Translations under genes and position numbers: made by a program
NCBI RefSeq assembly: GCF_022654015.1
Contig: NZ_CP073063.1
Location: 1,984,001-2,048,000, forward strand
Reading direction: 5' to 3'
From: Brevundimonas diminuta
Lineage (GTDB): Bacteria; Pseudomonadota; Alphaproteobacteria; Caulobacterales; Caulobacteraceae
DNA: 64,000 nt
In this document: positions 1-12,069 of the stretch, one piece after another
Numbering within the stretch: position 1 is the first letter of the stretch
Layout of the letters: each line of letters begins with the position of its first letter
Notes under the pieces: generated by a model
Database searches by the model: none
Seen by the model: only the letters and a program-made list of their open reading frames with translations
Told to the model about the DNA's origin: nothing

Positions 1-1
1 G

Positions 2-1201
2 GTCGCGTCGCCCACGGACTGCCTTTATGAGGGAGTTGTCTATGCGATACAGCAGAGCCCTGTGGAGTTTCGGTCCTGGTGGACCATGCAGGCTGTTGAA
101 CAACTGAGCCGTCATCAAGCACTCGCCTTCCGGCACCTACTCCATTGGCTCTGCCGCTGGGAGGTGGGCCAGTGGAGAAGTGCAGACGCCGCCCTCGTTC
201 GCGCTTTGCCCGGCCACGCCTATCGGAAATACGCAGGCGTCAGAGATCGGTCGTCGATCCTCCCTTATGACGCGAGGTCGAAGATCGTCGCTTATCTCGA
301 TGAGCTCAGCGGACTTGCAGCGTCGGGGCAGTGTACTCCAATAGCTGCGCGGGACGGTGCCATTCTCGCTGTGGCCTATCAGCACGGATTACGATCAAGG
401 CAGATTGCGATGCTGGACGTGAGTGACGTCCGCATCTTGGACGCGCAGATCGTCCATATCCGTCCAACTGTTATCAAGCAGCGGTCACAAAAGGTCGGAA
501 ATCGCGTCAATCGCAGGATTCAGGCGGAGTGGACGCCGTTATTTCGTTGCTGGGCGGACGTGTTGGAGTTCAAGTCCAACGGCAAGTTCTTCCGGATGGT
601 CCCTATTGAGATTGCTGGGATAGTTGGTGACGTGTCGGAGCGTGTCACCGGTAGCCGTTATGCCACGGGCATGTTCCGGCACACAGGAGCGCAGCGTCTC
701 GCAGACAGTGGGGCGTCTCGCGAAGAGGTTTCCGCTTACCTCAGTCATACGGACACGACCGCCGCAGATCATTACATCGAGAGCTCGCCTGCCCAGAACA
801 TGCTGGTGAACGCGGCGCTGGGTGAGTCCCCCACCTACCAATCCATCGCTGCAGCCATGCGCGGCGACCTCATAACCGTCGCTGACCTCTTGGGAAGACC
901 TGCCGATCAGCAGATCGGTGGAATGCCTCATGGCATTCCGGTCTCCGGCATAGGGGCGTGCACTGCGGGCCAGTCGCTCTGCACGCGGAACCCGGTTCTC
1001 AGTTGTTATACATGTCACAAGTTCCTTCCGGTCTCCGACAGTTCGATCCACCAGCAGGTTCTCACGGATCTGCGGCATGTGGTGCGCTCTTTTGACCAGC
1101 CATCCCGCATCGACCGCGTCTCGCCCGCGATGATGCAGCTGCGCGGCACCCTAGAAGCTGTTGGCAGCGTCCTTTCCGAAATCGACGGATCGAGCGAATG
1201 A
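2..1201 (+). CDS. Tyrosine recombinase, Tn554 TnpA-like (5' end cut by window edge)
   Basis: A site-specific recombinase that would cut and rejoin DNA through a phosphotyrosine. The reading frame is open to the first base of the window, so the true start probably lies upstream; a GTG at 62 is possible but has no convincing ribosome site. Catalytic landmarks are an Arg in HGLRSRQ, the RHTGAQ box, and SHTDTTAADHY, which carries the second His and the nucleophilic Tyr. The C-terminal third has paired cysteines (SLCTRNPVLSCYTCHKF) that look zinc-binding. The stop overlaps the next gene by four bases (ATGA). Size, order and overlap match tnpA of Tn554-type elements; the Tn554 assignment is by architecture, not by a database match. 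Confidence 0.85.
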   Translation, partial: VASPTDCLYEGVVYAIQQSPVEFRSWWTMQAVEQLSRHQALAFRHLLHWLCRWEVGQWRSADAALVRALPGHAYRKYAGVRDRSSILPYDARSKIVAYLDELSGLAASGQCTPIAARDGAILAVAYQHGLRSRQIAMLDVSDVRILDAQIVHIRPTVIKQRSQKVGNRVNRRIQAEWTPLFRCWADVLEFKSNGKFFRMVPIEIAGIVGDVSERVTGSRYATGMFRHTGAQRLADSGASREEVSAYLSHTDTTAADHYIESSPAQNMLVNAALGESPTYQSIAAAMRGDLITVADLLGRPADQQIGGMPHGIPVSGIGACTAGQSLCTRNPVLSCYTCHKFLPVSDSSIHQQVLTDLRHVVRSFDQPSRIDRVSPAMMQLRGTLEAVGSVLSEIDGSSE

Positions 1202-3519
1202 CGTCCTCCTTCGACCAGTTCATTGAAGACGGCAAGGTTCTCGCGGGACGCCATGGCTTGTCGTGGGACGTGCCGTACGATCTTCACACTGGAGCCATTC
1301 CCAAGGCACATTGGTGGGATCTCGGCGCCGCTGCCGGAAAGGTCGAGCGATCCCGAAAGCTGATCTCGACGTTTGCTGCAAACTCTTCGGCAGTGGCAGC
1401 GGTGCGCTCTCTTACAGGCCGCGATCATGCGGACGTCATGACGCCGGCCTGGATCAGCTTTTTAAAAGCCACGGCGGTCCATGACCTGTTCGTGAAGGGG
1501 CGGACTCCCGGCAACTTCGCGACCAATATCTCCGACTCTCTGCGCATCCTCGCAATATGCGCTGGAGACACCCCACCTCCCCTACTCTCCGCCAGCATTG
1601 TCTCAGCCGCTTACAATGCCGCTTTAATTGCCACTCCGTCCGCGAAGCGCGCCAGTACGCTGAAGGCGCTGATCGCGAACTGGCTAGATGGAACTGGAAA
1701 CGCCGATCAGCGGCCGCTCGCCCAGTACTGCATCCCGGACAAGAACAATGCCTTTTCGCTAGAGCGAGAGGAAAGGATCCAAATCACTCGTCGTCGACAG
1801 GTCGATAACAAGCGACCTGACGCCCTTCGAAGCGACCTGAGCCAGGTTCATTATGCCGAAAAGCTCCCGAACGAAGCAGCGTTGGCAGAGCTTATCCGCA
1901 TCGTGTTCAGCGCCAGGCCTGACACGTTCAGCGACCTAATCCGCTTTCATCAGGCACGAATTCTCCTCGCCACCGGGTTCCGTGTCGGAGAGCTCGTTTC
2001 TCTTCCGAGCAACTGCCTCATCGTTGAGCAGCCGGCTCCCACTAATCCGCGCCTGTTCGGCCCTCTGACGCCGATAGTCATGTTCAGGAACTTCGCCGAG
2101 AAACAAATGCCGGCCGGCCGCGGCTTCGAGCTGATCGACGCGATACAACACGTGCCTCCCCTCCTCGTGCCGACCGTCATGTCGAGCGTCGGAACGGTTC
2201 TGAGAGCGACAGAGCCGCTCCGACGACAAGCCAAAGCGCAGCGGGAGACTGGTTCATTGTTCCCCGATCTCCGACCTGAGGCGCTGATCTCCTGGACTGA
2301 GGCCTACACGCGGGCGTCCGGGGTGATGCAGGTAACAGTCAGTGAGATCCCCCAGTCGCTGAAGAACGCATACCGCGAGGCCTATGACGTTGTGTCTTTG
2401 AATGCGATCCGCCAGCACCAAGCGCAGGCGCTGATGTCGTCGTCGGTGAGCCCAAGGGTGCGTGATTATTTCCGCAGGGTTGAGAACAACCGCGGAGGTC
2501 GGAGCATACTGAAAGACAGCGAGGGCTCCGAACTCGTTCTTTCGAACCAAGAGCGGCTGGCGGGGCGGGCTCCCTTCGTACGCGTTGGCGAGCTGGAGGA
2601 GTACATCCGTGAGCACCTCAAGACCAAATTGCCTGAACAGCGATTGAGCCGTTCCGATCGCGGAGACGTTGGGCTTGAGGATCGACTGTTCCTTATTCCC
2701 GGTCGCGCGCGGGCAGAGGCTAAGCACGACGCGATCATAGATACCGAGCGCTATTTCTCGGTCCAGTCGGCTTCAGCGCAAGACCTGGAACTCCAACTTG
2801 GCGGGACTGAGGGCGGACGCTTGTTCCAGCGCTACGGCGCTTCCGAAATGGAACGTTGCCACACGATCAATCCCCACTCACTCCGACATTTGCAGAATAC
2901 GGAACTGTTCAGTCGCGGCGTTGCCGACACCGTCATTTCGCGCAGGTACAATCGCAAGGGCGTAGACCAGAGCTACGTCTACGATCACAGGACGCTGGCC
3001 GAGCATCTCGATGAGATGGAGCCCGACACGGCGCGGTTGGCGAAATCGATGCTTGGTCCGAAGGCCCGCCAGGCTTTTGACTTGATCCGAGGAGGCAAGA
3101 TTACCGGCCCGGTCGTGAGTGCCTTTCAGCGCCTTCAACGAGAAGAAGGTGATGAAGCGGCATTTGAGTTTCTTAACGCGGAGGCGGGCGCTCTCCATTT
3201 CACACCTTATGGGTTTTGTTTGAACAGCTTCGCGGCTAGCCCCTGCGTGAAACACCTTGAGTGCTTCAACCGGTGCAACCATCTCGTTCGAACGGACGCC
3301 CCAGAAGAACAAAAAAACCTGACCGACCTCAGCCGTAGATACAAGGTCCACATCGAGCGGCTCAGGACAAAGCCGAGCAGGGCTCCGAACTACATCACTC
3401 AACTTGCCCATGCCGAAGAGAGGCTGGAGGGCGTGCAGGCCGCCCTTGCGCAGGCGCCGGGGCGGCCCGTGTTCCCCGACGGGTCAAGTCTCCATGCGGA
3501 GGTCGGTCGTGCCCGCTAG
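1198..3519 (+). CDS. Large tyrosine recombinase, Tn554 TnpB-like
   Basis: A 773-residue recombinase, the second gene of the trio. It starts at the ATG overlapping the stop of the preceding recombinase, which suggests translational coupling. The long N-terminal part is unrecognised. The catalytic half shows GFRVGEL (first Arg), HSLRH near residue 560, and a Tyr in SYVYDH about 35 residues later. A C-terminal cysteine cluster (FC, then C..KHLEC...CNH) looks like a zinc site. TnpB of Tn554 is 630 residues, so this is a long relative. In that family the A and B proteins act together on one element; that the pair acts so here is inference. Confidence 0.85.
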   Translation: MTSSFDQFIEDGKVLAGRHGLSWDVPYDLHTGAIPKAHWWDLGAAAGKVERSRKLISTFAANSSAVAAVRSLTGRDHADVMTPAWISFLKATAVHDLFVKGRTPGNFATNISDSLRILAICAGDTPPPLLSASIVSAAYNAALIATPSAKRASTLKALIANWLDGTGNADQRPLAQYCIPDKNNAFSLEREERIQITRRRQVDNKRPDALRSDLSQVHYAEKLPNEAALAELIRIVFSARPDTFSDLIRFHQARILLATGFRVGELVSLPSNCLIVEQPAPTNPRLFGPLTPIVMFRNFAEKQMPAGRGFELIDAIQHVPPLLVPTVMSSVGTVLRATEPLRRQAKAQRETGSLFPDLRPEALISWTEAYTRASGVMQVTVSEIPQSLKNAYREAYDVVSLNAIRQHQAQALMSSSVSPRVRDYFRRVENNRGGRSILKDSEGSELVLSNQERLAGRAPFVRVGELEEYIREHLKTKLPEQRLSRSDRGDVGLEDRLFLIPGRARAEAKHDAIIDTERYFSVQSASAQDLELQLGGTEGGRLFQRYGASEMERCHTINPHSLRHLQNTELFSRGVADTVISRRYNRKGVDQSYVYDHRTLAEHLDEMEPDTARLAKSMLGPKARQAFDLIRGGKITGPVVSAFQRLQREEGDEAAFEFLNAEAGALHFTPYGFCLNSFAASPCVKHLECFNRCNHLVRTDAPEEQKNLTDLSRRYKVHIERLRTKPSRAPNYITQLAHAEERLEGVQAALAQAPGRPVFPDGSSLHAEVGRAR

Positions 3520-3982
3520 GTCTGAGCAGGAGTTTCTGGAACACTTGCTCCAGACGATGGTCGAACAGGACATCGACCTCACCTTCCGAGGTGTCGCGGA
3601 GCGCTCGGAAGGTCGGTTTGCTCATGCCAGCACCTTCACCCGAAGGCTCGACCTGCGTGCAGCCGTCGAGGCGGCTCAAGGTCGTCAAAAGGCAGTAAGA
3701 CAGGTCGCTGCCAAATTTTCAAAAAGTTCCCCTGCCCTTCTCGCCGAACGTCTCGCAGCGGCCCAGGCTGAAGTGCAAACGTTAAAGCGTCAAAGGGATC
3801 TTCTCGTAGCAGGCCATCGAGCCGCGATTCTTGCCATAGGGAGGATTGGCGAGATGAAGGCTTGGAGAGAGTACTTCGTTGATTACAGCGAGGCCCTTCA
3901 AGACTTGAAGGAACTAGGCGCGCTTCCAGAAGCCGAGGTCGTCCGGATTGCACCTGTCGAAGAGCCGGATCCCAATCGGTAG
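3509..3982 (+). CDS. Small coiled-coil accessory protein, Tn554 TnpC-like
   Basis: Third gene of the recombinase trio, about 157 residues. I place the start at GTG 3509 because GGAGG at 3498-3502 lies six bases upstream; an in-frame ATG at 3494 is the alternative. Either start lies inside the 3' end of the preceding gene. The protein has a short helical N-terminus resembling DNA-binding accessory factors and a clear heptad-like stretch (RLAAAQAEVQTLKRQRDLL) predicted to form a coiled coil. TnpC of Tn554 is a 125-residue auxiliary protein affecting orientation and frequency of transposition; the parallel is based on position, size and coiled coil only. Confidence 0.7.
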   Translation: MPARSEQEFLEHLLQTMVEQDIDLTFRGVAERSEGRFAHASTFTRRLDLRAAVEAAQGRQKAVRQVAAKFSKSSPALLAERLAAAQAEVQTLKRQRDLLVAGHRAAILAIGRIGEMKAWREYFVDYSEALQDLKELGALPEAEVVRIAPVEEPDPNR

Positions 3983-3988
3983 CGACTT

Positions 3989-4222
3989 TTAGTCTCGCTT
4001 TGGCTGAAGCAGGCTCCAGACCTCGGTCGAAAGACCGGTGGCCAAGGCGTTCAAGCTGTCCAGCGAAACGTTCCGTTCGCTACGTTCGATCGATCCCACA
4101 TAGGTCCGATGGAGCCCCGAAGCATCTGCGAGCTGCTCCTGACTCAGCTTTCTTTCCTGACGAAGCATGCGGACGTTTCGCGCCAGGACGTCCCTTAAAT
4201 GTCTCGCTTCACCCGCTGCCAT
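3989..4222 (-). CDS. XRE-family helix-turn-helix transcriptional regulator
   Basis: A 77-residue protein that is almost all one Cro/CI-type domain: LSQEQLADASGLHRTYVGSI is the helix-turn-helix, followed by the typical ER.. N.SLDSLNALA segment. There is no second domain, so it probably acts as a small dimeric repressor. It ends six bases from the convergent small gene of the recombinase trio and is divergent from the unknown gene at 4278. The 55-bp divergent spacer contains a perfect inverted repeat that may be its operator, suggesting autoregulation and control of the neighbour. Confidence 0.85.
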   Translation of the reverse strand: MAAGEARHLRDVLARNVRMLRQERKLSQEQLADASGLHRTYVGSIERSERNVSLDSLNALATGLSTEVWSLLQPKRD

Positions 4223-4277: not shown

Positions 4278-4925
4278 ATGACCGGTGCACCGGGGATCGC
4301 CCCACCATTCTCATCGTCAGACGTCCCCGTTGCGATCGTCGCTGACGCGGACGTCGTTGCCCGGCTTGAACAGGAACGTTCGAGCTTGCATGACCCTGAC
4401 CTCCAGTCGACGGTCAGGCGACGACTGGAAAGCGCGGGCCGCCTTCTGGCGCACTTAGAGCGGAGAGATCTCACTTGGCCTCCGCCACGACGGTCGAGGC
4501 GGACCGTGAATGCGACGATCTCGCGGGCGGCTTTGGACGAACTGAGATCGCAAGCAGACAGGCTAGATGTTGCTGAGCAGATCTTGCTCTCTGGCGTGCT
4601 GGCCGACAACCTATTTGCATCCCCGTTAGCGATGATAGATCGGGACGAGCCACTGTCCGGATATCTTAGAACCGAGCGTGGCCACGGCCGAATTTATGGC
4701 ATTCAGTTCGAAGTCACGGGCTTCCAGTACGCCTTCCTGAAGACACTCGCCGGTCAGAGCCTCACTACGCGTGAGATTTTCCAATTGGCCGTTAGGTCCT
4801 TGGCAGAGCGCCTAGGCCGAGGGGATCCGCCGCCTGGTTTGCCCCTTTCTAGGGAAGCACTGTCTATGGCGGCAAAGGTATCTCTTGGCGCTCCAGGGAA
4901 CTCCCAATCTTCACCTCGAAGTTAA
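4278..4925 (+). CDS. Hypothetical protein next to the recombinase trio
   Basis: A 215-residue protein I do not recognise. The N-terminal half is charged and probably helical (residues 25-100, many Arg/Glu/Leu), with a basic patch WPPPRRSRRTVNAT. The middle (about 125-160) looks like a small folded region with Gly-Tyr and aromatic residues. The C-terminus is Pro/Ser rich. No signal peptide or membrane segment is visible. It is divergent from the XRE gene and starts 12 bases after the putative operator, so it is probably controlled by that regulator. It may be a passenger of the recombinase element. Function unknown. Confidence 0.65.
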   Translation: MTGAPGIAPPFSSSDVPVAIVADADVVARLEQERSSLHDPDLQSTVRRRLESAGRLLAHLERRDLTWPPPRRSRRTVNATISRAALDELRSQADRLDVAEQILLSGVLADNLFASPLAMIDRDEPLSGYLRTERGHGRIYGIQFEVTGFQYAFLKTLAGQSLTTREIFQLAVRSLAERLGRGDPPPGLPLSREALSMAAKVSLGAPGNSQSSPRS

Positions 4926-5160: not shown

Positions 5161-5221
5161 CGGATTCGCCGGCGGTCCAACCGCTAGCCTACAATGCGCC
5201 AGGAACAGACATTGGCGGCAC

Positions 5222-5239
5222 GCCGGAAACACGACATTC
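5222..5239 (+). repeat. 18-bp direct repeat, left copy
   Basis: GCCGGAAACACGACATTC is found identically at 11812-11829. The bases further out are partly similar as well. The two copies bracket the array and its recombinase, so they could be recombination or insertion boundaries. The left copy is also next to an acgacatt/aatgtcgt stem that runs into the first array repeat. Confidence 0.55.
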
Positions 5240-5254
5240 AGGTGGGCTTCAAAG

Positions 5255-5303
5255 GTCCGCTTTCCGGCCTAATGCCAATGTCGTGGTCCGACCCATTGCG
5301 GAC
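5255..5303 (+). repeat. Array repeat 1
   Basis: Begins GTCCGCTTTCCGG and ends CCGACCCATTGCGGAC; the outer GTCCGC and GCGGAC are complementary. It lies between the small membrane gene at 4936 and the minus-strand gene at 5339. Confidence 0.75.
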
Positions 5304-5338
5304 AGTCCTTGGCACAAAACGCCTTGGTCCGGCGGCAA

Positions 5339-5578
5339 TCAGAGCGATCTCCCTTTGAGCTTCCGATACGCTTTAAACGCAAGTCGCGTCAGCAAGCCAA
5401 AGAGAACAGACAGGCCGACCATAACAGTGCAGGGCCACCACATCCGGTTGGCAGCTAACACCGCCGCCATCAGCGATGTCCACAGCGGCAGCAGGACGGT
5501 GAAGGCGAGAAGCAAGGCGCCGACAAAAAGCGTCTGGCGTTCTTTGAAACTGCGATCGGATTTAGGAGCGCGGGGCAT
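5339..5578 (-). CDS. Small membrane protein
   Basis: A 79-residue protein with a basic N-terminus (MPRAPKSDRSFKER) and two hydrophobic segments, about residues 16-42 and 47-66, ending in a basic tail RKLKGRSL. The layout suggests both termini in the cytoplasm. It is unrelated in sequence to its neighbours, is flanked by array repeats on both sides, and has no recognisable family. Function unknown. Confidence 0.55.
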   Translation of the reverse strand: MPRAPKSDRSFKERQTLFVGALLLAFTVLLPLWTSLMAAVLAANRMWWPCTVMVGLSVLFGLLTRLAFKAYRKLKGRSL

Positions 5579-5980
5579 CTTTCACCGATTTGAGTTTCCT
5601 TACTATGACGAGTCAACTAGCGGCCCATGGCGTGGACCGCTCTCTGCTCGAAGGCTAGGTCAGTTTTCAGCGCTTGGATCTAGGACCTAAATCGACCCAT
5701 CTGCGACCTTCGGAAGGTCCCTTTTTGACGTCTCGACAAACAAGACCGATGTGGGGCTGTAAGTGCCTGGTTTCAGCCCGGCGGGAGGGGCCGTCGAGCG
5801 GCGAGCGGCCCCGCATGCGTCCGAAGGTTGACTAGAAGGCGCGAAGCGACGGAACTTAGACCGCCGGCCGCTGTCCCTGCTCGGGGTTGGCCTGACTGAC
5901 CAGCGGATGGTCTAGCGCGTGGTAGAGTTGCTGGCGGTCGAAGGTGCAAGAGTCCGCACCTTGCAAACCGCGCAAGTTTA
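5579..5980. other. Gene-free stretch with a diverged array repeat
   Basis: About 400 bases without a convincing gene. It holds one diverged array repeat (5659-5707). A minus-strand frame ending at the TAA at 5856-5858 reads protein-like in its last 30 codons (Gln-rich, starting only at a TTG near 5975), so it could be the remnant of a lost gene. Nothing else is recognisable. Confidence 0.5.
5659..5707 (+). repeat. Array repeat 2 (diverged)
   Basis: Begins GTCAGTTTTC and ends TCGACCCATCTGCGAC, a degenerate match to the array consensus CGACCCATTGCGGAC, in the same orientation as the others. It lies between the genes at 5339 and 5981. Confidence 0.5.
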
Positions 5981-6283
5981 TTACCCCGGCAACTTGTCGG
6001 CCAGGACATCCGCCTTGCGGATTTGTGGCGCAGCGGCGAGGAGTTCGTCCGCATTCGCCATCAACGCCTCGGCCACCTTGCCGCCGAGATGGGCCTCTCG
6101 GCCAGCTTCGTTATCAAAGGCGTCGAAGATCGCGAACGTGCTGTGATCGAAGCGGACCGCGAACCAAGCGATCGTGCCTGGTTCGCCTTCAACCAAGCTC
6201 TGCGCGCTGGCTAGGAATGCGGCGACCGCCTCTTCCTTCCCGGGCTTTGCTTTAAGTTCCACATAAAGCGACACTGCGGTCAT
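5981..6283 (-). CDS. Antibiotic biosynthesis monooxygenase (ABM) domain protein, putative quinol monooxygenase
   Basis: A 100-residue single-domain protein of the ABM dimeric ferredoxin-like fold. The opening beta strand and helix (VSLYVELKAKPGKEEAVAAF), the central EPGTIAWFAVRFD strand and the FDAFDNEAGREAHLGG stretch are typical of YgiN-type proteins. Family members oxidise quinols or small aromatics without a cofactor, or act in reactive-aldehyde metabolism; the substrate here cannot be read from sequence. It is an orphan in the array, flanked by repeats, and is the only gene of the array with a confident family. Confidence 0.8.
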   Translation of the reverse strand: MTAVSLYVELKAKPGKEEAVAAFLASAQSLVEGEPGTIAWFAVRFDHSTFAIFDAFDNEAGREAHLGGKVAEALMANADELLAAAPQIRKADVLADKLPG

Positions 6284-6642
6284 GGTCTGGACTCCCGTTT
6301 ATCCACCCGGTTATCCACCTCATGCGCCGTTTTACAAAACCAATTCTAAATCGATTCTGATTTCAAACCCTGTAATCGAGTTCTGAAATCTTATTTTTGG
6401 CCCAGGGAATTCCCCTGTCTCCGCTTGAGGATATCCGTCCCAATCCCATTTAACTTTGTGAACTCAGTATCACGTGAATGCTGGCCTGAGTCGGCCTCAG
6501 AACGCTGATCGCGAGCCGAAGCTCAGGTCCGCTTTCCACCCTTAGCTGACATCGACTGCGACCGTTTCCCGGCCTGAAGGCCAACGTCCGCTATTGGCCG
6601 TGAAGCCCATGACTGAAATCGACCCAAAGCGGACTTCTTCCG
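6284..6642. other. Gene-free stretch: AT-rich upstream region plus array repeat
   Basis: Just upstream of the ABM gene (minus strand), about 6320-6420 is unusually A+T rich and probably contains its promoter. The rest is taken up by an extended array repeat at 6527-6634. No gene is visible. Confidence 0.5.
6527..6634 (+). repeat. Array repeat 3 (long form)
   Basis: Starts GTCCGCTTTCCACCC, has a second internal GTCCGC at 6586-6591 and ends TCGACCCAAAGCGGAC. The two-part structure is like the long copies at 8008 and 9344. It lies between the ABM gene and the gene at 6643. Confidence 0.65.
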
Positions 6643-7074
6643 CTACCGCTTTGGGGCTGCTGAGTTAAACGCAGACAGGTGAGAGAACCCGAACGTCAAT
6701 ATCGCGGCTACAAAGCCAATGATGGGGCCGACGAACAGCGTAAGCACCATGACGCGAGTTCCACTCCACCGGTAGGCTCCGCCATGTGCCACGTCGAGCG
6801 AAGTGCTGAATGCAGCATTCACAGCCCAAAGTATCACCACAGAGCCGAAAGCGGCCAAGGCGGATATAAGCCGTCGGGATCGTCCAAACTGGGCGAAAAT
6901 CAACACGCTGGCCGCGATCATCGCTATGGCAACGCCCAGTTCTGCGATGCTGCCCTGCACTTCTCCTAGCCGAAAGCCCGCTGTCGCCTCGATCACAAAG
7001 GCCAACGCAAGGATCGCAACAGCCAAGGCAGTTGCGTTAGTTCGAAAACCGCTGTGACCAGAGGCGCTGTTCAT
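6643..7074 (-). CDS. Hypothetical membrane protein, four predicted TM helices
   Basis: About 143 residues from ATG 7074; an in-frame GTG at 7089 would add five residues, and neither start has a strong ribosome site. Four hydrophobic segments are evident: an N-terminal one (AVAILALAFVIEA), two in the middle (ELGVAIAMIAASVLIFAQF and ISALAAFGSVVILWAV) and one near the C-terminus (FVGPIIGFVAAILTF). The loops are short. No known family. It is flanked by array repeats. Confidence 0.55.
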   Translation of the reverse strand: MNSASGHSGFRTNATALAVAILALAFVIEATAGFRLGEVQGSIAELGVAIAMIAASVLIFAQFGRSRRLISALAAFGSVVILWAVNAAFSTSLDVAHGGAYRWSGTRVMVLTLFVGPIIGFVAAILTFGFSHLSAFNSAAPKR

Positions 7075-7110
7075 ATGGTCATTGTGCACTGCTGCTGCCG
7101 CTGAGCCAAC

Positions 7111-7134
7111 GTCGCCTTCCCACCGATTGCGGAC
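7111..7134 (+). repeat. Array repeat 4 (short form)
   Basis: GTCGCCTTCCCACCGATTGC followed by GGAC: only the outer arms and the conserved 3' end remain. It sits in the divergent spacer between the genes at 6643 and 7185. Confidence 0.5.
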
Positions 7135-7184
7135 ATTGTCATGTCCATCGATAATAACGTCCGTAACAGGGTCGGAGATCTGGT

Positions 7185-7490
7185 TTGCTCATCACGCTTG
7201 CTGGTCGATATCACAAGAGGCTGTGCCAACTTGGCTCTGGTACAGAGCCTGCTCGCCTAGCCTACATCGCACCGGCTGTTTCGATCCCATGGTCGGTCGC
7301 ACTTCTTCCCGGCGTGGCTTGCGCTTTCCTGCTCGACACAGGAAAAACAACTCCACTTAGCTATGCGGACTCCTCCATCCTGAGATGGATCCTTCTCGCT
7401 GGCTTGGCGATCCCGTTGGTGGGAATGGCGTACGCAAACATCACAGTTCTAGTTTGCTGCTTCCGTACCGAGGCCCGTCGCAATCAATAA
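7185..7490 (+). CDS. Small hypothetical membrane protein
   Basis: A 101-residue frame starting at TTG 7185, with GGAG at 7174-7177 seven bases upstream; the frame is closed by a stop at 7164, so there is no earlier start. Two hydrophobic segments (about residues 27-50 and 67-92) are joined by a polar loop with DTGKTTPLSY. The C-terminus is basic. No family recognised. It lies between two array repeats, only a few bases before the second. Confidence 0.45.
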   Translation: MLITLAGRYHKRLCQLGSGTEPARLAYIAPAVSIPWSVALLPGVACAFLLDTGKTTPLSYADSSILRWILLAGLAIPLVGMAYANITVLVCCFRTEARRNQ

Positions 7491-7496
7491 GGCAAT

Positions 7497-7520
7497 GTCA
7501 GCTATCGACCCATTGCGGAC
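7497..7520 (+). repeat. Array repeat 5 (short form)
   Basis: GTCAGC, then TCGACCCATTGCGGAC, with a perfect match to the array 3' consensus. It begins seven bases after the gene at 7185 and ends 30 bases before the gene at 7550. Confidence 0.65.
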
Positions 7521-7549
7521 GCAGGGCGATCCGCAGTTAAACTGCGACT

Positions 7550-7993
7550 ATGGTCCGCAGAGTTTTGATCTTCCTCATTTGCCCTTTAGTTCTGGGCTTT
7601 GGCTTGGCGCAGTGGGCTCAGGCTGCCGGGATACGAACAGCTGGCATCCACTGGCTAGCTTCGGTCTTCTACTATCTGATTTTTGCATTGCCCGGATTAG
7701 TGCTCGTCGTCCGGTTGGGTCGGGGCAAGCGAAGAGATTTTGTCGAGGCGGCAGGGGCTCTTGGCGCAATGGCTACCGGAATTTTGGTGTGGGCGACGCT
7801 GGGCTACGGCGCTTTCTTCAATGTGGTCGAGGCAGATGGACCGCGTCGCTATACGATTATGGAAGCCGCGCTTTTTGGTCTGCGCGATGCTGCTTTTAAT
7901 GTGACGTTGGCGGGCTTAGCCTTGGCTGCGTCGCTTATTGGCGTGAGGCTTATCGAAGCGGGCATCCGCGCAGTTCAAGTGAAAGCCGTGTAG
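7550..7993 (+). CDS. Hypothetical membrane protein, four predicted TM helices
   Basis: A 147-residue protein with an N-terminal hydrophobic segment that could be a signal anchor (LIFLICPLVLGFGLAQWAQA), then three further hydrophobic segments (about residues 37-56, 66-90 and 115-135). A polar loop with VVEADGPRRYTIME lies between the third and fourth. No family recognised. It follows array repeat 5 and precedes array repeat 6. Confidence 0.6.
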   Translation: MVRRVLIFLICPLVLGFGLAQWAQAAGIRTAGIHWLASVFYYLIFALPGLVLVVRLGRGKRRDFVEAAGALGAMATGILVWATLGYGAFFNVVEADGPRRYTIMEAALFGLRDAAFNVTLAGLALAASLIGVRLIEAGIRAVQVKAV

Positions 7994-8309
7994 CTCCTCT
8001 GAGCAATGGCCGCTTCCCACCCCTAGCCGCAGTTCGGCGGGTCCTCTTTTGGCTGTGGCGCCGATGTCCGCTTTCCGCGCTGGTGTCGATGTCGTGGGCC
8101 GACCCGTAGCGGACGTTATTTTCTCTTTGCCTAGAATCTAATCGACATCGCGAATGCTTAGATTGAAGCGGAAATAGAGCCGGATGGCCTGTCGAATGAC
8201 TCCGGCCTATGCCGATGACGCTTGGACGACAACCATATCTCGCTGTTCCCAATGACCTTCCTGCCTCCTTCAGTGGAGACAGTTCAGCGGTAGACGGACA
8301 GGGCCAAGG
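7994..8309. other. Gene-free stretch holding the long array repeat
   Basis: About 316 bases. The left third is array repeat 6 (8008-8114). The remaining 190 bases, downstream of the minus-strand broken gene that ends at 8310, show no gene and no clear terminator. Confidence 0.5.
8008..8114 (+). repeat. Array repeat 6 (long form, near-identical twin of repeat 7)
   Basis: Positions 8017-8105 are identical over 89 bp to 9353-9441. It contains an internal GTCCGCTTTCC and ends CCGACCCGTAGCGGAC. It also holds a small internal hairpin (agccg / cggc) in its left part. The copy lies between the genes at 7550 and 8310. Confidence 0.85.
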
Positions 8310-9253
8310 TCAAGGCACCGAATGCACTCTCCGCCGCATGTTGTTCACAATCAGGCCAGCTTGCGCATTCGCTGAGCGGGGAGATGCGTATTGTGAATAG
8401 AGGCTGTGAAGATACGCTCTATCCCAGTCCGTCATCCCGGGGCCGGCATCATCAAACAGATTGAGCACGGTTTCGTAAGAACTGGTTTCGGCCGCCATGT
8501 CGATCTGGGCCAAGGAGATCATGGCAATGTAATCACCGAGTTGCCCAGCGCTGACCGACCCGGTCTTCGAGAAATCGACGATGACGATGACTTTATACAG
8601 CGCGTCTACCGTCTGATCGGTCAGACGAGAACCCGTGGTGGCCTCGACTATGGGCGCGAAGGCAATCGGGCAATCGTATCCGCCACAACCCGCTGCCTCT
8701 GCGATGTCCGGAGAGATGAACCGGGTTGGTCGCCTGGTACGCGCACTGCCCTCGAGCCGAACTTATCGACCGGCATACTCAGTGACCACCAGCGCACTGG
8801 CTTTTCCGAGGTCTGGAATGCCTGCAGTGGTGCCTGCCCTCGATCAAGGCCGCCTACACCAACGCGAAACAGTCTGGCGTCGTTTTCGACCATTTTCTGC
8901 GCCAGCGCAGACCCGTCGTTTGTGAAGATGATCACAAGGTTCGGGTCGCAACCGGGCTGTCCCGGACGGAGATGCAACTCGGCCGAAATGTCGCTGACCC
9001 GGTCGAGAATCGGCTGTGCCGCCTCCGCACGCAGGTTGACCGTCGCTGGACATAGGGGCCCTCGCCAACGCGCTAGACCGCGACCAGTCGCCGGAGCCGC
9101 CACACGTCCGACGAAACCATGCACCGCATCCCGCTCGGGCACGCCGGTGACTTCAACATCCGGCAATGTGGCCGATTGCGGCTCTGTTGCCGGAGCCGAC
9201 TGGAGCGGCGTGGCCAACAGCAGGGCAGACAAGATCGAGACTGAAAGCATCAA
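8310..9253 (-). pseudogene. Frameshifted gene for an exported Caulobacteraceae protein
   Basis: The 5' frame (9253 to 8648) encodes a signal peptide and 201 residues with LARWRGPLCPATVNL, GQPGCDPNLVIIFT and EKPVRWW. It stops at TAG 8650-8648. One base out of phase, the frame running from about 8653 to 8310 continues with VDALYKVIVIVDFSKTGSVS, then GQLGDYIAMISLAQID and GMTDWDRAYLHSLY. Together they give one protein of about 314 residues of a family I associate with Brevundimonas and Caulobacter, whose members keep these blocks in one frame. A single missing base near 8650-8655 explains the break. It could be a true inactivating mutation or a sequencing error. Function of the family unknown. 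Confidence 0.75.
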
Positions 9254-9343
9254 AAGGCTCGCTTCGATGTTGGAGGTGGATGCTAGCGCCTTAAGCCTGA
9301 GGGCGACGCCTGAACGTAACCGCTAAGTTCAGCCCAAACTAGT

Positions 9344-9450
9344 GTCCGCTAACCACCCCTAGCCGCAGTTCGGCGGGTCCTCTTTTGGCTGTGGCGCCGA
9401 TGTCCGCTTTCCGCGCTGGTGTCGATGTCGTGGGCCGACCCATTGCGGAA
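9344..9450 (+). repeat. Array repeat 7 (long form, near-identical twin of repeat 6)
   Basis: Identical to 8017-8105 over positions 9353-9441. It starts with a full GTCCGCT arm and ends CCGACCCATTGCGGAA, one base off the consensus. It lies between the broken gene and the gene at 9477. Together repeats 6 and 7 flank the broken gene as direct repeats 1,336 bp apart. Confidence 0.85.
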
Positions 9451-9476
9451 GTACTGCTTGGGAGTAGCTTGTCCAT

Positions 9477-9692
9477 ATGGACATTGAACGTGACCCTTAC
9501 GGTATGCCAATCGATCCTGCCGAGCGCATGCAGCAGGTGATGTTGGGCCTGTACGATCTCATGGATGAAGCCGGACAAGCTAACTTCCCTCACGAACTAA
9601 TCTTCGAACTCAATACGGTGCGCCTAAGTTTCCTCGATGAGTTCGAGCGACGCTTCCCCAACTATGGGAAAGGGCGGGCTGTCTGGCGCTAG
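9477..9692 (+). CDS. Small hypothetical protein
   Basis: A 71-residue acidic soluble protein from ATG 9477, 26 bases after array repeat 7. The sequence has a proline turn (GMPIDPAERM), a probable helix (QQVMLGLYDLMDEAGQ) and a second helix (NTVRLSFLDEFERRFP). No membrane segment, no cysteine, no family recognised. Even composition and helical periodicity make it look like a real protein. Confidence 0.5.
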   Translation: MDIERDPYGMPIDPAERMQQVMLGLYDLMDEAGQANFPHELIFELNTVRLSFLDEFERRFPNYGKGRAVWR

Positions 9693-9705
9693 GTTCAGCT
9701 GATTG

Positions 9706-9776
9706 CCCTAGCTGCAGTTCGGCGCGCTCGCGCTTGGGCTGAGGGGCCGATGTTCGCTTTCCGACCCATTGCAGAC
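9706..9776 (+). repeat. Array repeat 8
   Basis: Matches repeats 6 and 7 with substitutions and a deletion: CCCTAGCTGCAGTTCGGCG, then GTTCGCTTTCCGACCCATT and GCAGAC at the end. It lies between the genes at 9477 and 9880. Confidence 0.7.
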
Positions 9777-9879
9777 GTTCGGGTCAAAGATATGCTGGCC
9801 TAGCGGATGGTGTGCTCGACACACCACAGTGTTGGGTCTGGATGCGCCAGCATACTGAGGCCAGCAGATTGGATTGTAG

Positions 9880-10365
9880 ATGATGAACACGACAACGCCT
9901 GCTGATGTCGGTGTCCTGTCAAAATTCTCGACTTGGAAAGTTCTTGGCATTAGCGGGCTTATAGCGGGAGCCGCCGCGCTAATGTGGTTTTGGCTCCTCA
10001 ACTTCGGAGAGTACCAAGGACGTCGATATCCGCCGGAAGTCGCCAAGGTTCTGCTGACGATTTCCACCATCGGCATAACGGCTTTCCTTCCGCTATGTGC
10101 TTGGCATGTCTGGAATTACGTTCGCAGTCCAGCAGCTCTTTATGTCTCGGGAGGACGTCTTTTTATCTACTGGGCATACTTCCAATCGGTTGCGATTAAA
10201 GACATCGAAAAGGCTGTCGATCTGGGCCGCTCTGGGCCAATGCGCGATAGCGTTCACCTGTCGGTAAATGGTCGGCAGGCCATAGTCTTTCAGACTGGAT
10301 TCATGGCGGACAGGGGCAGCGATGTCGTCGCGAAAATCAATCGCGTCCTTAGTGCTTCGGCTTGA
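9880..10365 (+). CDS. Hypothetical membrane protein with PH-like tail
   Basis: A 161-residue protein with two N-terminal membrane segments (about residues 21-42 and 58-82) and a soluble C-terminal half. That half has a strand pattern (AALYVSGGRLFIYWAYFQSV, then DIEKAV, then DSVHLSVNGRQAIVFQ) resembling the bacterial PH-like domains seen behind two-helix anchors. The PH assignment is weak. It is visibly AT-richer than core genes. It lies between array repeats 8 and 9. Function unknown. Confidence 0.6.
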   Translation: MMNTTTPADVGVLSKFSTWKVLGISGLIAGAAALMWFWLLNFGEYQGRRYPPEVAKVLLTISTIGITAFLPLCAWHVWNYVRSPAALYVSGGRLFIYWAYFQSVAIKDIEKAVDLGRSGPMRDSVHLSVNGRQAIVFQTGFMADRGSDVVAKINRVLSASA

Positions 10366-10390
10366 TTACGAAACCGGTCTCGAGACCAGC

Positions 10391-10439
10391 GTCCGCTTCT
10401 AGCAACAAGGCCTAGTACCGGAATCGACCCATTGCAGAC
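10391..10439 (+). repeat. Array repeat 9
   Basis: Begins GTCCGCTTCTAG and ends TCGACCCATTGCAGAC. It lies between the genes at 9880 and 10486, 26 bases after the first. Confidence 0.65.
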
Positions 10440-10485
10440 ATCGCTTTTGAGCGGCACCTTCGAGGGAGTTCTGTGAGGTTCTGGT

Positions 10486-11037
10486 ATGGTGATTATGATG
10501 CTGGCGAGCCTGGCTTTACAGGCTCAGCCTCGAGACTATCGCGAGGAACGGCTGGGGCAGTTCGTGCCGATGGTCGTGCTGGAAATCAGTCCCAGCCTGA
10601 GACTGACCGGAGAAGTCTTCAGCATCTATGCGCCGTTTACCGGACCGCGCGACCGACACGAGCGCGTTCTCGCGGTAAGACGGGGGATCAGCGGTCGAGA
10701 CGCTCCATTGAACGAAGAATGGGTAGTTGCATCCGAATGCCCTGGTGCAGAAGCAGTGCTGCTCGAGTTGGAAAGCTTGCCCCCTCCAATGGTTGATCTG
10801 CCGACGATAGGGCGTGACGATCGACAGGGGCCGACCCTTGACGGCATAGGTTATCGACTGTTCGCGAGATACCCGACGTGGCGGGACGGCTTCGCTTACG
10901 AAATGGAATACGCGACCAATATCGGCACGCCGCTCGCGGCATGGGCAAATCGGTTGAGGTCGACGCTTGAGCCCTGCTGGACGACGTCGCGACCGAGCGC
11001 ATGGGGCGAATCTGACCCTTCAACTCGCGATCAATAA
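10486..11037 (+). CDS. Hypothetical exported or membrane-anchored protein
   Basis: A 183-residue protein. GAGG at 10475-10478 lies seven bases before ATG 10486, which supports this start. A short hydrophobic N-terminus (MVIMMLASLALQAQP) resembles a signal peptide with a plausible cleavage after AQA. The rest is soluble with two cysteines (SECPG and EPCW) that could pair in the periplasm. No family recognised. It is the last gene of the array before the compact recombinase. Confidence 0.55.
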   Translation: MVIMMLASLALQAQPRDYREERLGQFVPMVVLEISPSLRLTGEVFSIYAPFTGPRDRHERVLAVRRGISGRDAPLNEEWVVASECPGAEAVLLELESLPPPMVDLPTIGRDDRQGPTLDGIGYRLFARYPTWRDGFAYEMEYATNIGTPLAAWANRLRSTLEPCWTTSRPSAWGESDPSTRDQ

Positions 11038-11070
11038 GTCTGCACCCCACCCCTCTGAGACATAGGGGCA

Positions 11071-11083
11071 GTCCGCTTTCCGG
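11071..11083 (+). repeat. Array repeat 10 (left arm only)
   Basis: GTCCGCTTTCCGG, identical to the left arm of repeat 1; the conserved 3' arm is missing. It lies between the last array gene and the convergent recombinase, so it may mark the truncated end of the array. Confidence 0.45.
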
Positions 11084-11102
11084 CGGGCCGCCCCAAGCCT
11101 GC

Positions 11103-11729
11103 TCAGAGGTCGATCTGCTCTGAAATCTCCAGCGCGTCGTCCACTTCGATGCCGAGATACCTGACGGTGCTCTCGAGCTTTCCGTGCCCGAGAAGGAGCT
11201 GGCAGGCGCGTAGGTTTCCGGTCTTCTTATAGATCAAGGCCACCTTGGTCCGTCTCAGGCTGTGGGTGCCATAGGCGCTGGGGTTCAGGTCGATCATTCT
11301 CACCCAGGTATCGACCAGCCGAGCGTACTGCCTGGTGCCTATGTGCTCTCCATCCCGGCTGCGGCTGGGGAACAGCCAGTCGTCACGCCGTAGTCCTCGG
11401 CGCTCCAACCAGTGAGCTAGAGCTTCTCTAGCGGCCTCCGTGATCTCGAACGGCACGGGCCGACCGGTCTTCTGCTGGATGATCGTCGACCGCTGCCGAA
11501 TGACGCCGCCTTGAGCAACATCGCCGAGGCGGAGTTTTACTAGATCACAGCCCCGCAGCTTCGCATCCAATGCGATGTTGAACATCGCGAGATCCCGTAT
11601 CGATCCAACGGACTTCAGGTGCTGACGGATCGCCCAGATGTGCTTTGGCTTGAGCGGGGCCTTCGCTCCGGTCATTCGACCAGCGTTCCAGGGTTTGCGG
11701 GGTAAACGAAATAGATCGGGCTGGCTCAT
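11103..11729 (-). CDS. Compact tyrosine recombinase/integrase
   Basis: A 208-residue protein from ATG 11729, supported by GGAGG five bases upstream; an in-frame GTG at 11735 lies too close to that site. Catalytic residues are visible: Arg in LRGCDLVKLRLGD, HSLRRTK, LLGHGKLES and Tyr in TVRYLG. At this length the N-terminal arm-binding and most of the core-binding domain are missing, yet the frame is intact; other alphaproteobacterial integrases of about 210 residues look the same. It faces the array of small genes and may act on the repeats there; that link is inference. It could also be a leftover of another element. Confidence 0.85.
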   Translation of the reverse strand: MSQPDLFRLPRKPWNAGRMTGAKAPLKPKHIWAIRQHLKSVGSIRDLAMFNIALDAKLRGCDLVKLRLGDVAQGGVIRQRSTIIQQKTGRPVPFEITEAAREALAHWLERRGLRRDDWLFPSRSRDGEHIGTRQYARLVDTWVRMIDLNPSAYGTHSLRRTKVALIYKKTGNLRACQLLLGHGKLESTVRYLGIEVDDALEISEQIDL

Positions 11730-12069
11730 GGCCACCTCCCACGATCAACGCCCCTTCCGCACGATACGCCCCAAACAACGCAGATGCGCCATGAACGGTC
11801 ATGACGAACGTGCCGGAAACACGACATTCCCGGCGTGAGTTGGGCGTGCGCTTTGAGGCGCGATGCCAACCGGCTCGGCGAAAATCAGCGAGCCGGGCGG
11901 CGATCTGGCGATCCAAGCCGTCGAGCAGGGCGGTTCCATTGGCGACCGAGGCCACTGTTGCGTTGGTCTGCCAGAATGGACCGGTTTCGCCCTTTAGCGT
12001 GAAGCGCAGATGCACGGTGTCGTTGGATTTCGGCATAGGACGCTCAGACAGAGATTTTTTTTCAAACAA
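11545..12069 (-). CDS. Unknown frame, possibly the 5' part of a truncated gene
   Basis: A frame opening at TTG 12069, with GGAG about seven bases upstream. Its first 90 residues look protein-like (VHLRFTLKGETGPFWQTNAT, LLDGLDRQIAARLADFRRAG). The last 60 codons run inside the 5' end of the recombinase and are probably meaningless, so the gene may be a truncated remnant. The right copy of the 18-bp direct repeat lies within it and reads ECRVSG here. The left copy reads the same six residues in a similar minus-strand context that is soon closed by a stop. Confidence 0.3.
   Translation of the reverse strand: MFEKKSLSERPMPKSNDTVHLRFTLKGETGPFWQTNATVASVANGTALLDGLDRQIAARLADFRRAGWHRASKRTPNSRRECRVSGTFVMTVHGASALFGAYRAEGALIVGGGHEPARSISFTPQTLERWSNDRSEGPAQAKAHLGDPSAPEVRWIDTGSRDVQHRIGCEAAGL
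11812..11829 (+). repeat. 18-bp direct repeat, right copy
   Basis: Identical to 5222-5239, same orientation, 6,590 bp apart. The two bracket the array of small genes and the compact recombinase. Confidence 0.55.

Follow-up and report, generated by a model that had tools for sequence, protein, structure and literature searches.

What kind of element is a row of small genes that is divided by one directional repeat and ends in a compact recombinase? This question was examined in a 64,000-nucleotide stretch of Brevundimonas diminuta (positions 1,984,001 to 2,048,000 of contig NZ_CP073063.1), referred to here as the window. The results made it highly probable that the row is an array of mobile cassettes whose ends lie within a 27-bp directional core, and that their excision and insertion, by exchange in this core, is the work of the compact tyrosine recombinase.

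Inspection of the sequence and its open reading frames (ORFs) gave nine small genes in a row, pointing in both directions and mostly of unknown function. The plus-only repeat, the compact recombinase on the minus strand and the exact 18-bp repeats described in the original prediction were all present. An element had been predicted for nearly every spacer. The repeat was real and confined to the plus strand, but the working unit was a core of about 27 bp, and the longer element was often two cores lying 83-84 bp apart. Using an oriented matrix, we found 13 copies of the core GTCCGCTTTCSACCC^ATTGCGGACATT (^, crossover) in the window, on the plus strand only and spanning 5280-11064. They start at 5280, 5684, 6527, 6611, 7111, 7497, 8008, 8091, 9344, 9427, 9753, 10416 and 11038, and delimit nine gene-sized and three geneless units of 83-84 bp. 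Each unit has the right half-site (^ATTGCGGACATT) at its beginning and the left half-site (GTCCGCTTTCSACCC^) at its end, and is therefore flanked by two sites in the same orientation. The features are listed below.

5196..5239 (+), first copy of the composite site, bounding the array on the left, GCGCCA^...CGCCGGA^AACACGACATTC
5280..5306 (+), core 1 by the matrix, crossover after 5294
5295..5698, unit 1, ORF 5339-5578 (-), 79 amino acids (aa)
5699..6541, unit 2, ORF 5981-6283 (-), 100 aa, ABM domain (PF03992)
6542..6625, geneless 84-bp unit bordered by the cores at 6527 and 6611
6626..7125, unit 4, ORF 6643-7089 (-), 148 aa, present also in G122 (97%)
7126..7511, unit 5, ORF 7185-7490 (+), 101 aa, present also in G165 (94%)
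7512..8022, unit 6, ORF 7550-7993 (+), 147 aa
8023..8105, geneless 83-bp unit
8106..9358, unit 8, possibly a broken gene, longest minus-strand ORF 8648-9253, 201 aa, present also in G253 (95%)
9359..9441, geneless 83-bp unit
9442..9767, unit 10, ORF 9477-9692 (+), 71 aa
9768..10430, unit 11, ORF 9880-10365 (+), 161 aa
10431..11052, unit 12, ORF 10486-11037 (+), 183 aa
11038..11064 (+), degenerate core 13, where the recombinase unit has its left end
11053..11791, unit with the recombinase gene, running from core 13 to GCGCCA^; 767 bp (11036-11802) align to L192 at 97%, and the flanks differ
11103..11735 (-), compact tyrosine recombinase, 210 aa from GTG, PF00589 at E 7.7e-19
11786..11829 (+), second copy of the composite site, on the promoter side of the recombinase

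Two further details of the original prediction were revised. The 18-bp repeats thought to bracket the array (5222-5239 and 11812-11829) were exact, but only parts of the composite of about 44 bp. The lone left arm at 11071 existed as sequence, but it belonged to a hairpin-like stretch (11065-11094) directly past the stop codon of the recombinase, and core 13 lay directly before this stretch. The enzyme at the array end was a compact tyrosine recombinase, with 210 residues from its GTG start.

The movement of single units was investigated by comparing window 5161-11102 with 131 genomes of the genus. Matches to the array at E 1e-10 or better occurred in 35 of them, mostly as stretches shorter than 200 bp. 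Three genomes of other species each held one complete window unit alone, at 94-97% identity, and both of its ends fell at a single point within the core. Identical units were thereby seen at different places in different species, with their end points unchanged. For unit 4 in G122, identity ran through TTCCCACC at the right end before the sequences diverged. The match of unit 5 in G165 started at ATTGCGGAC, and that of unit 8 in G253 ran through GTCCGCTARCCACCC, with one internal difference, up to the divergence. These borders were consistent with exchange between ACC and the following ATTGC.

The same tendency was observed in a wider set of 87 loci (664 kb), most picked for holding such repeats and the rest for the recombinase. 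Segments common to these loci (at least 150 bp, at least 80% identity) gave 73 usable ends, and 48 of these lay at a core; random placement, tried 500 times, put 4.3 ends there on average and never more than 14. The recombinase unit recurs in many of the 73 ends, and 16 of the 25 misses were its right end, which is GCGCCA and not a core. When segments touching any recombinase gene were excluded, 22 of 28 ends were at a core (random mean 2.0, highest 8).

Two pairs of loci were compared for gain and loss. L195 (G186) and L241 (G183) had a flank of 2.5 kb in common at 95%. In L241, the flank core was followed by a cassette that L195 carried at 99%; in L195, about 750 bp with further cores lay between, and ACCC was found at both joins. 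Past the common cassette, the two loci ceased to match at a double-core element, already at its first core, and therefore the 84-bp unit was not tied to the preceding cassette. L196 (G167) and L198 (G168) had both flanks in common at 95-96%, and their cassettes differed from the first core onward. Exchange was seen at either core of a pair, since the window/L183 and L195/L241 borders were at the first core and others at the second. The single cassettes with core-internal ends and the L195/L241 insertion thus agreed with the predicted gene-capture array, in which genes and repeats are gained and lost as units. At one intergenic place between two conserved genes (L283-L302), cassettes were present in four of 20 genomes, with none recognisable in the rest.

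The core itself was quasi-palindromic and G+C-rich. The matrix consensus, trained on array loci with orientation enforced, was GTCcGCTttCgACCC^aTaGCGGACaTT. It detected 396 cores in the 87 loci against 3.0 expected in shuffled sequence, and neighbouring cores less than 3 kb apart were on the same strand in 302 pairs and on opposite strands in 5. Genome-wide, the 15-mer CGACCCATTGCGGAC with up to two mismatches gave 27 matches (reversed control 16), eight in the window array and two in a second array (C1:1807.8-1808.3 kb). Core spacing was bimodal. The gene-sized units, 214 in number, measured 200-2500 bp with a median of 497 bp; a second class lay at 82-87 bp. In the gene-sized units, the longest ORF covered a median of 0.76 of the length compared to 0.43 in shuffled units, and it ran with the core in 124 cases and against it in 90. 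A scan of 131 cassette proteins gave matches to 46 Pfam families in all; of the 25 families listed, the two GNAT families alone had more than one matching protein.

The geneless units of 82-87 bp numbered 52, and 38 were exactly 84 bp. Their mean interior identity was about 60%. Further core pairs lay about 25 or 57 bp apart, and the core-pair distances suggested steps of roughly 28 bp. The geneless units may be compound binding sites.

We then considered the recombinase as the candidate enzyme. It had 209-210 residues, with about 30 ahead of the catalytic domain, and R60, K88, H157, R160, H183 and Y192 (A1 numbering) were invariant in 14 relatives. The structural model, built on a 14-sequence alignment, had no structured part before residue 29, where the predicted local distance difference test score (pLDDT) was low. 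The protein seems to be catalytic-domain-only. Its NCBIfam matches were Xer and XerA-type models, all far below cut-offs, and the nearest solved relatives by profile were XerD, XerA and XerH. The K88-H157 spacing was 69, which is Xer-like and shorter than in IntI1. A core lay just past the 3' end in 28 of 34 copies, and 26 of 34 had further cores in the same orientation within 6 kb. On this 3' side, cores were oriented 106:3 in one direction. Most Brevundimonas copies of the unit end with GCGCCA. By its borders, the recombinase gene is itself a unit that moves between the same kind of sites.

A second array in the source genome (C1, about 1.806-1.810 Mb; L010 7551-11640) adjoined a 95%-identical recombinase, so that the genome holds two recombinases and two arrays. 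Its far end carried GCCGCAAACACGACATTC, one base off the 18-bp repeat of the window. The composite, as GCGCCA^ with GGA^AACACGACATTC or a close sequence, stood ahead of the first core in the window and in L187, L192, L229 and L236. It lay at the array edge and on the promoter side of the recombinase, and it may have an attI-like role. In the mechanism that we propose, recombination between two cores would release a circle with one core, and the circle would re-enter at another core, perhaps with a preference for the composite that borders the array. This exchange would be performed by the compact recombinase, and the cores would be used as double-stranded DNA, unlike attC.

The range of enzyme and core was determined next. 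Of 149 family genomes, 38 gave a recombinase match with an E value of 1e-20 or lower. Relatives were found in at least 405 plasmid records and, among the matches listed, in 592 of 596 stretches of species genomes; 16 phage records matched, and in six of them the match spanned 80% or more of the length. Plasmid-borne relatives came from Sinorhizobium, Pantoea, Escherichia, Klebsiella, Vibrio and Acetobacter. The 15-mer with up to one mismatch was present in 110 of 149 family genomes, and neighbours within 3 kb agreed in strand 35 to 1 among the matches listed. The exact 17-mer SACCCNTWGCGGACATT occurred in 77 of 131 genus genomes with 144 copies (reversed control one). Where cores were present, they formed one-way runs; the exact core was rare outside the genus, turning up in 7 of 289 genomes in a sample of the class, and two of these seven belonged to the genus. 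Arrays in genomes without a close recombinase match included L163-L182, L185, L212 and others, and L185 (G165) had 22 cores over 9 kb.

In Variovorax J22G73 (L149), an array lay on both sides of its own recombinase with a different core (about GACCGCTTCTGGCCGACTGTAGCC; 26 plus, 3 minus). Two segments were each present twice. The copies of the first (531 bp) were 98.5% identical and had their borders in cores; those of the second (357 bp) were 95.5% identical, with coordinates running core to core. This betaproteobacterial array gives independent support from another class.

Several results weighed against a cassette system driven by this recombinase. Among the 131 genus genomes, those with an intact recombinase had a mean of 0.97 exact cores compared to 1.14 in the rest, and at least one exact core was present in 18 of 29 genomes with it and 59 of 102 without it. 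Genomes with an intact recombinase were not richer in exact cores, and therefore arrays persist without the recombinase or are served otherwise. Scatter of the repeat through genomes lacking the recombinase was thus partly seen: many genomes held cores without the enzyme, which counted against a strict one-to-one link. Of the three genomes with a window cassette, two (G122 and G165) gave no close recombinase match, and a clean empty site was not found at the conserved locus of G122. No recognisable core adjoined six of the 34 recombinase copies, and for one of these six the contig ends 141 bp away. L149 was the only locus outside Caulobacteraceae in which the relaxed matrix revealed a clear one-way array. 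Arrays without the recombinase would be relics, or served in trans like attC clusters without an integrase.

The persistence of arrays in genomes without a close relative of the recombinase would also be expected if the cassettes were real but moved by host XerC/XerD, as dif modules of Acinetobacter are, with the compact recombinase as a passenger. Xer-type recombinases (about 55 bits, A1 search) were found in most genomes. However, the core differed between Brevundimonas and Variovorax, each recombinase lay among cores of its own type, and the recombinase gene was bounded by the same sites. Unlike dif sites, the cores here were G+C-rich, and unlike neighbouring dif-module sites, which are in opposite orientation, they kept a single orientation (302 same, 5 opposite). 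The core sequence also differed from that of dif. Host-driven movement was considered unlikely.

Still less probable was a palindromic family like repetitive extragenic palindromic (REP) sequences or miniature inverted-repeat transposable elements, with genes moving by homologous recombination between repeats. The quasi-palindromic core and the recurrence of geneless 84-bp units (52 in 87 loci) would suit it. However, REP sequences and bacterial interspersed mosaic elements are scattered, orientation-free and not tied to gene units, whereas these cores had one orientation, were rare outside clusters and carried whole genes core to core. The borders fell at one point in a 27-bp site, too short and varied for efficient homologous recombination. 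The REP-like view, named as the rival in the original prediction, left the unit-exact borders unexplained and was contradicted by them. A diverged integron with attC-like folded sites was a very poor candidate, as three of five elements folded like shuffles or slightly better (z -1.06 to +0.57), many sites were single cores, exchange occurred at either core of a pair and the model lacked a structured N-terminal domain like that of IntI.

Mobile cassettes exchanged at the 27-bp core were then compared with known systems. Integrons and clusters of attC sites lacking integrases (CALINs) likewise have directional one-gene cassettes in arrays, mostly with small genes of unknown function, a tyrosine recombinase at one edge and arrays without a recombinase. 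In the window array, too, the cassettes carry one gene each, have directional sites and come and go as units. Unlike integrons, it had a short core instead of a folding attC, exchange in mid-core, mixed gene direction (124 with, 90 against) and a recombinase gene that was itself a unit, with no evident N-terminal domain in the model. Over both strands of five elements, z was -2.57 to +0.57 with no common fold, and the minimal site was the 27-bp core; the prediction that the site is not an integron attC was thus supported. Folding of the single-stranded attC into a conserved hairpin defines integrons and was not seen in these elements; the recombinase architecture, set against the core-binding domain and specific insertion of IntI, may point in the same direction. 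Dif (pdif) modules of Acinetobacter are described in PMC12907356 as gene modules between short tyrosine-recombinase (XerCD) sites, also on chromosomes. The arrays share this arrangement; they differ in encoding a recombinase and in their G+C-rich sites of one orientation. The enzyme has the catalytic domain of the Xer family and simple tyrosine recombinases, but where a core-binding domain would precede it there are only about 30 residues. According to section 7 of PMC8138268, both domains are usual in simple recombinases, and the subgroups named there include no catalytic-domain-only cassette recombinase.

The system works like an integron, and we place it among the cassette-array systems, possibly as a third class. 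No description of such a system was found in searches of an open-access library. We consider it fairly probable that it represents a third, non-homologous class after integrons and dif modules, across Proteobacteria, with short double-stranded cores, a catalytic-domain-only recombinase travelling as one of its own cassettes and a large, so far unnoticed reservoir of unknown small genes that it mobilises.

A four-gene operon immediately to the left of the array encodes proteins of 398, 491, 773 and 192 aa (window 1-3982; L009 7534-10202). The first three had integrase-type matches, the third weak and below the Pfam cut-off; the fourth had no match in profile searches. GInt islands carry ginABCD, as stated in PMC5385486, and the operon likewise combines three large tyrosine recombinases with one smaller protein, which fits a putative ginABCD module. 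As far as can be told, this GInt-like island is separate from the cassette mechanism, and it may carry the array as cargo. A 215-aa protein (4278-4925) had a weak match, below cut-off, to the BrnA antitoxin model, and a small helix-turn-helix protein (3989-4222) adjoins it.

Integrons are seen as the chief platform on which bacteria accumulate small genes. If our interpretation is true, there would be a second such platform beside them, with its own site and enzyme, on chromosomes and with recombinase relatives on plasmids. It would explain a class of orphan small genes and would offer a compact recombinase (about 210 aa) with a short site. It would also give a rule for locating mobile unknown genes in Proteobacteria.
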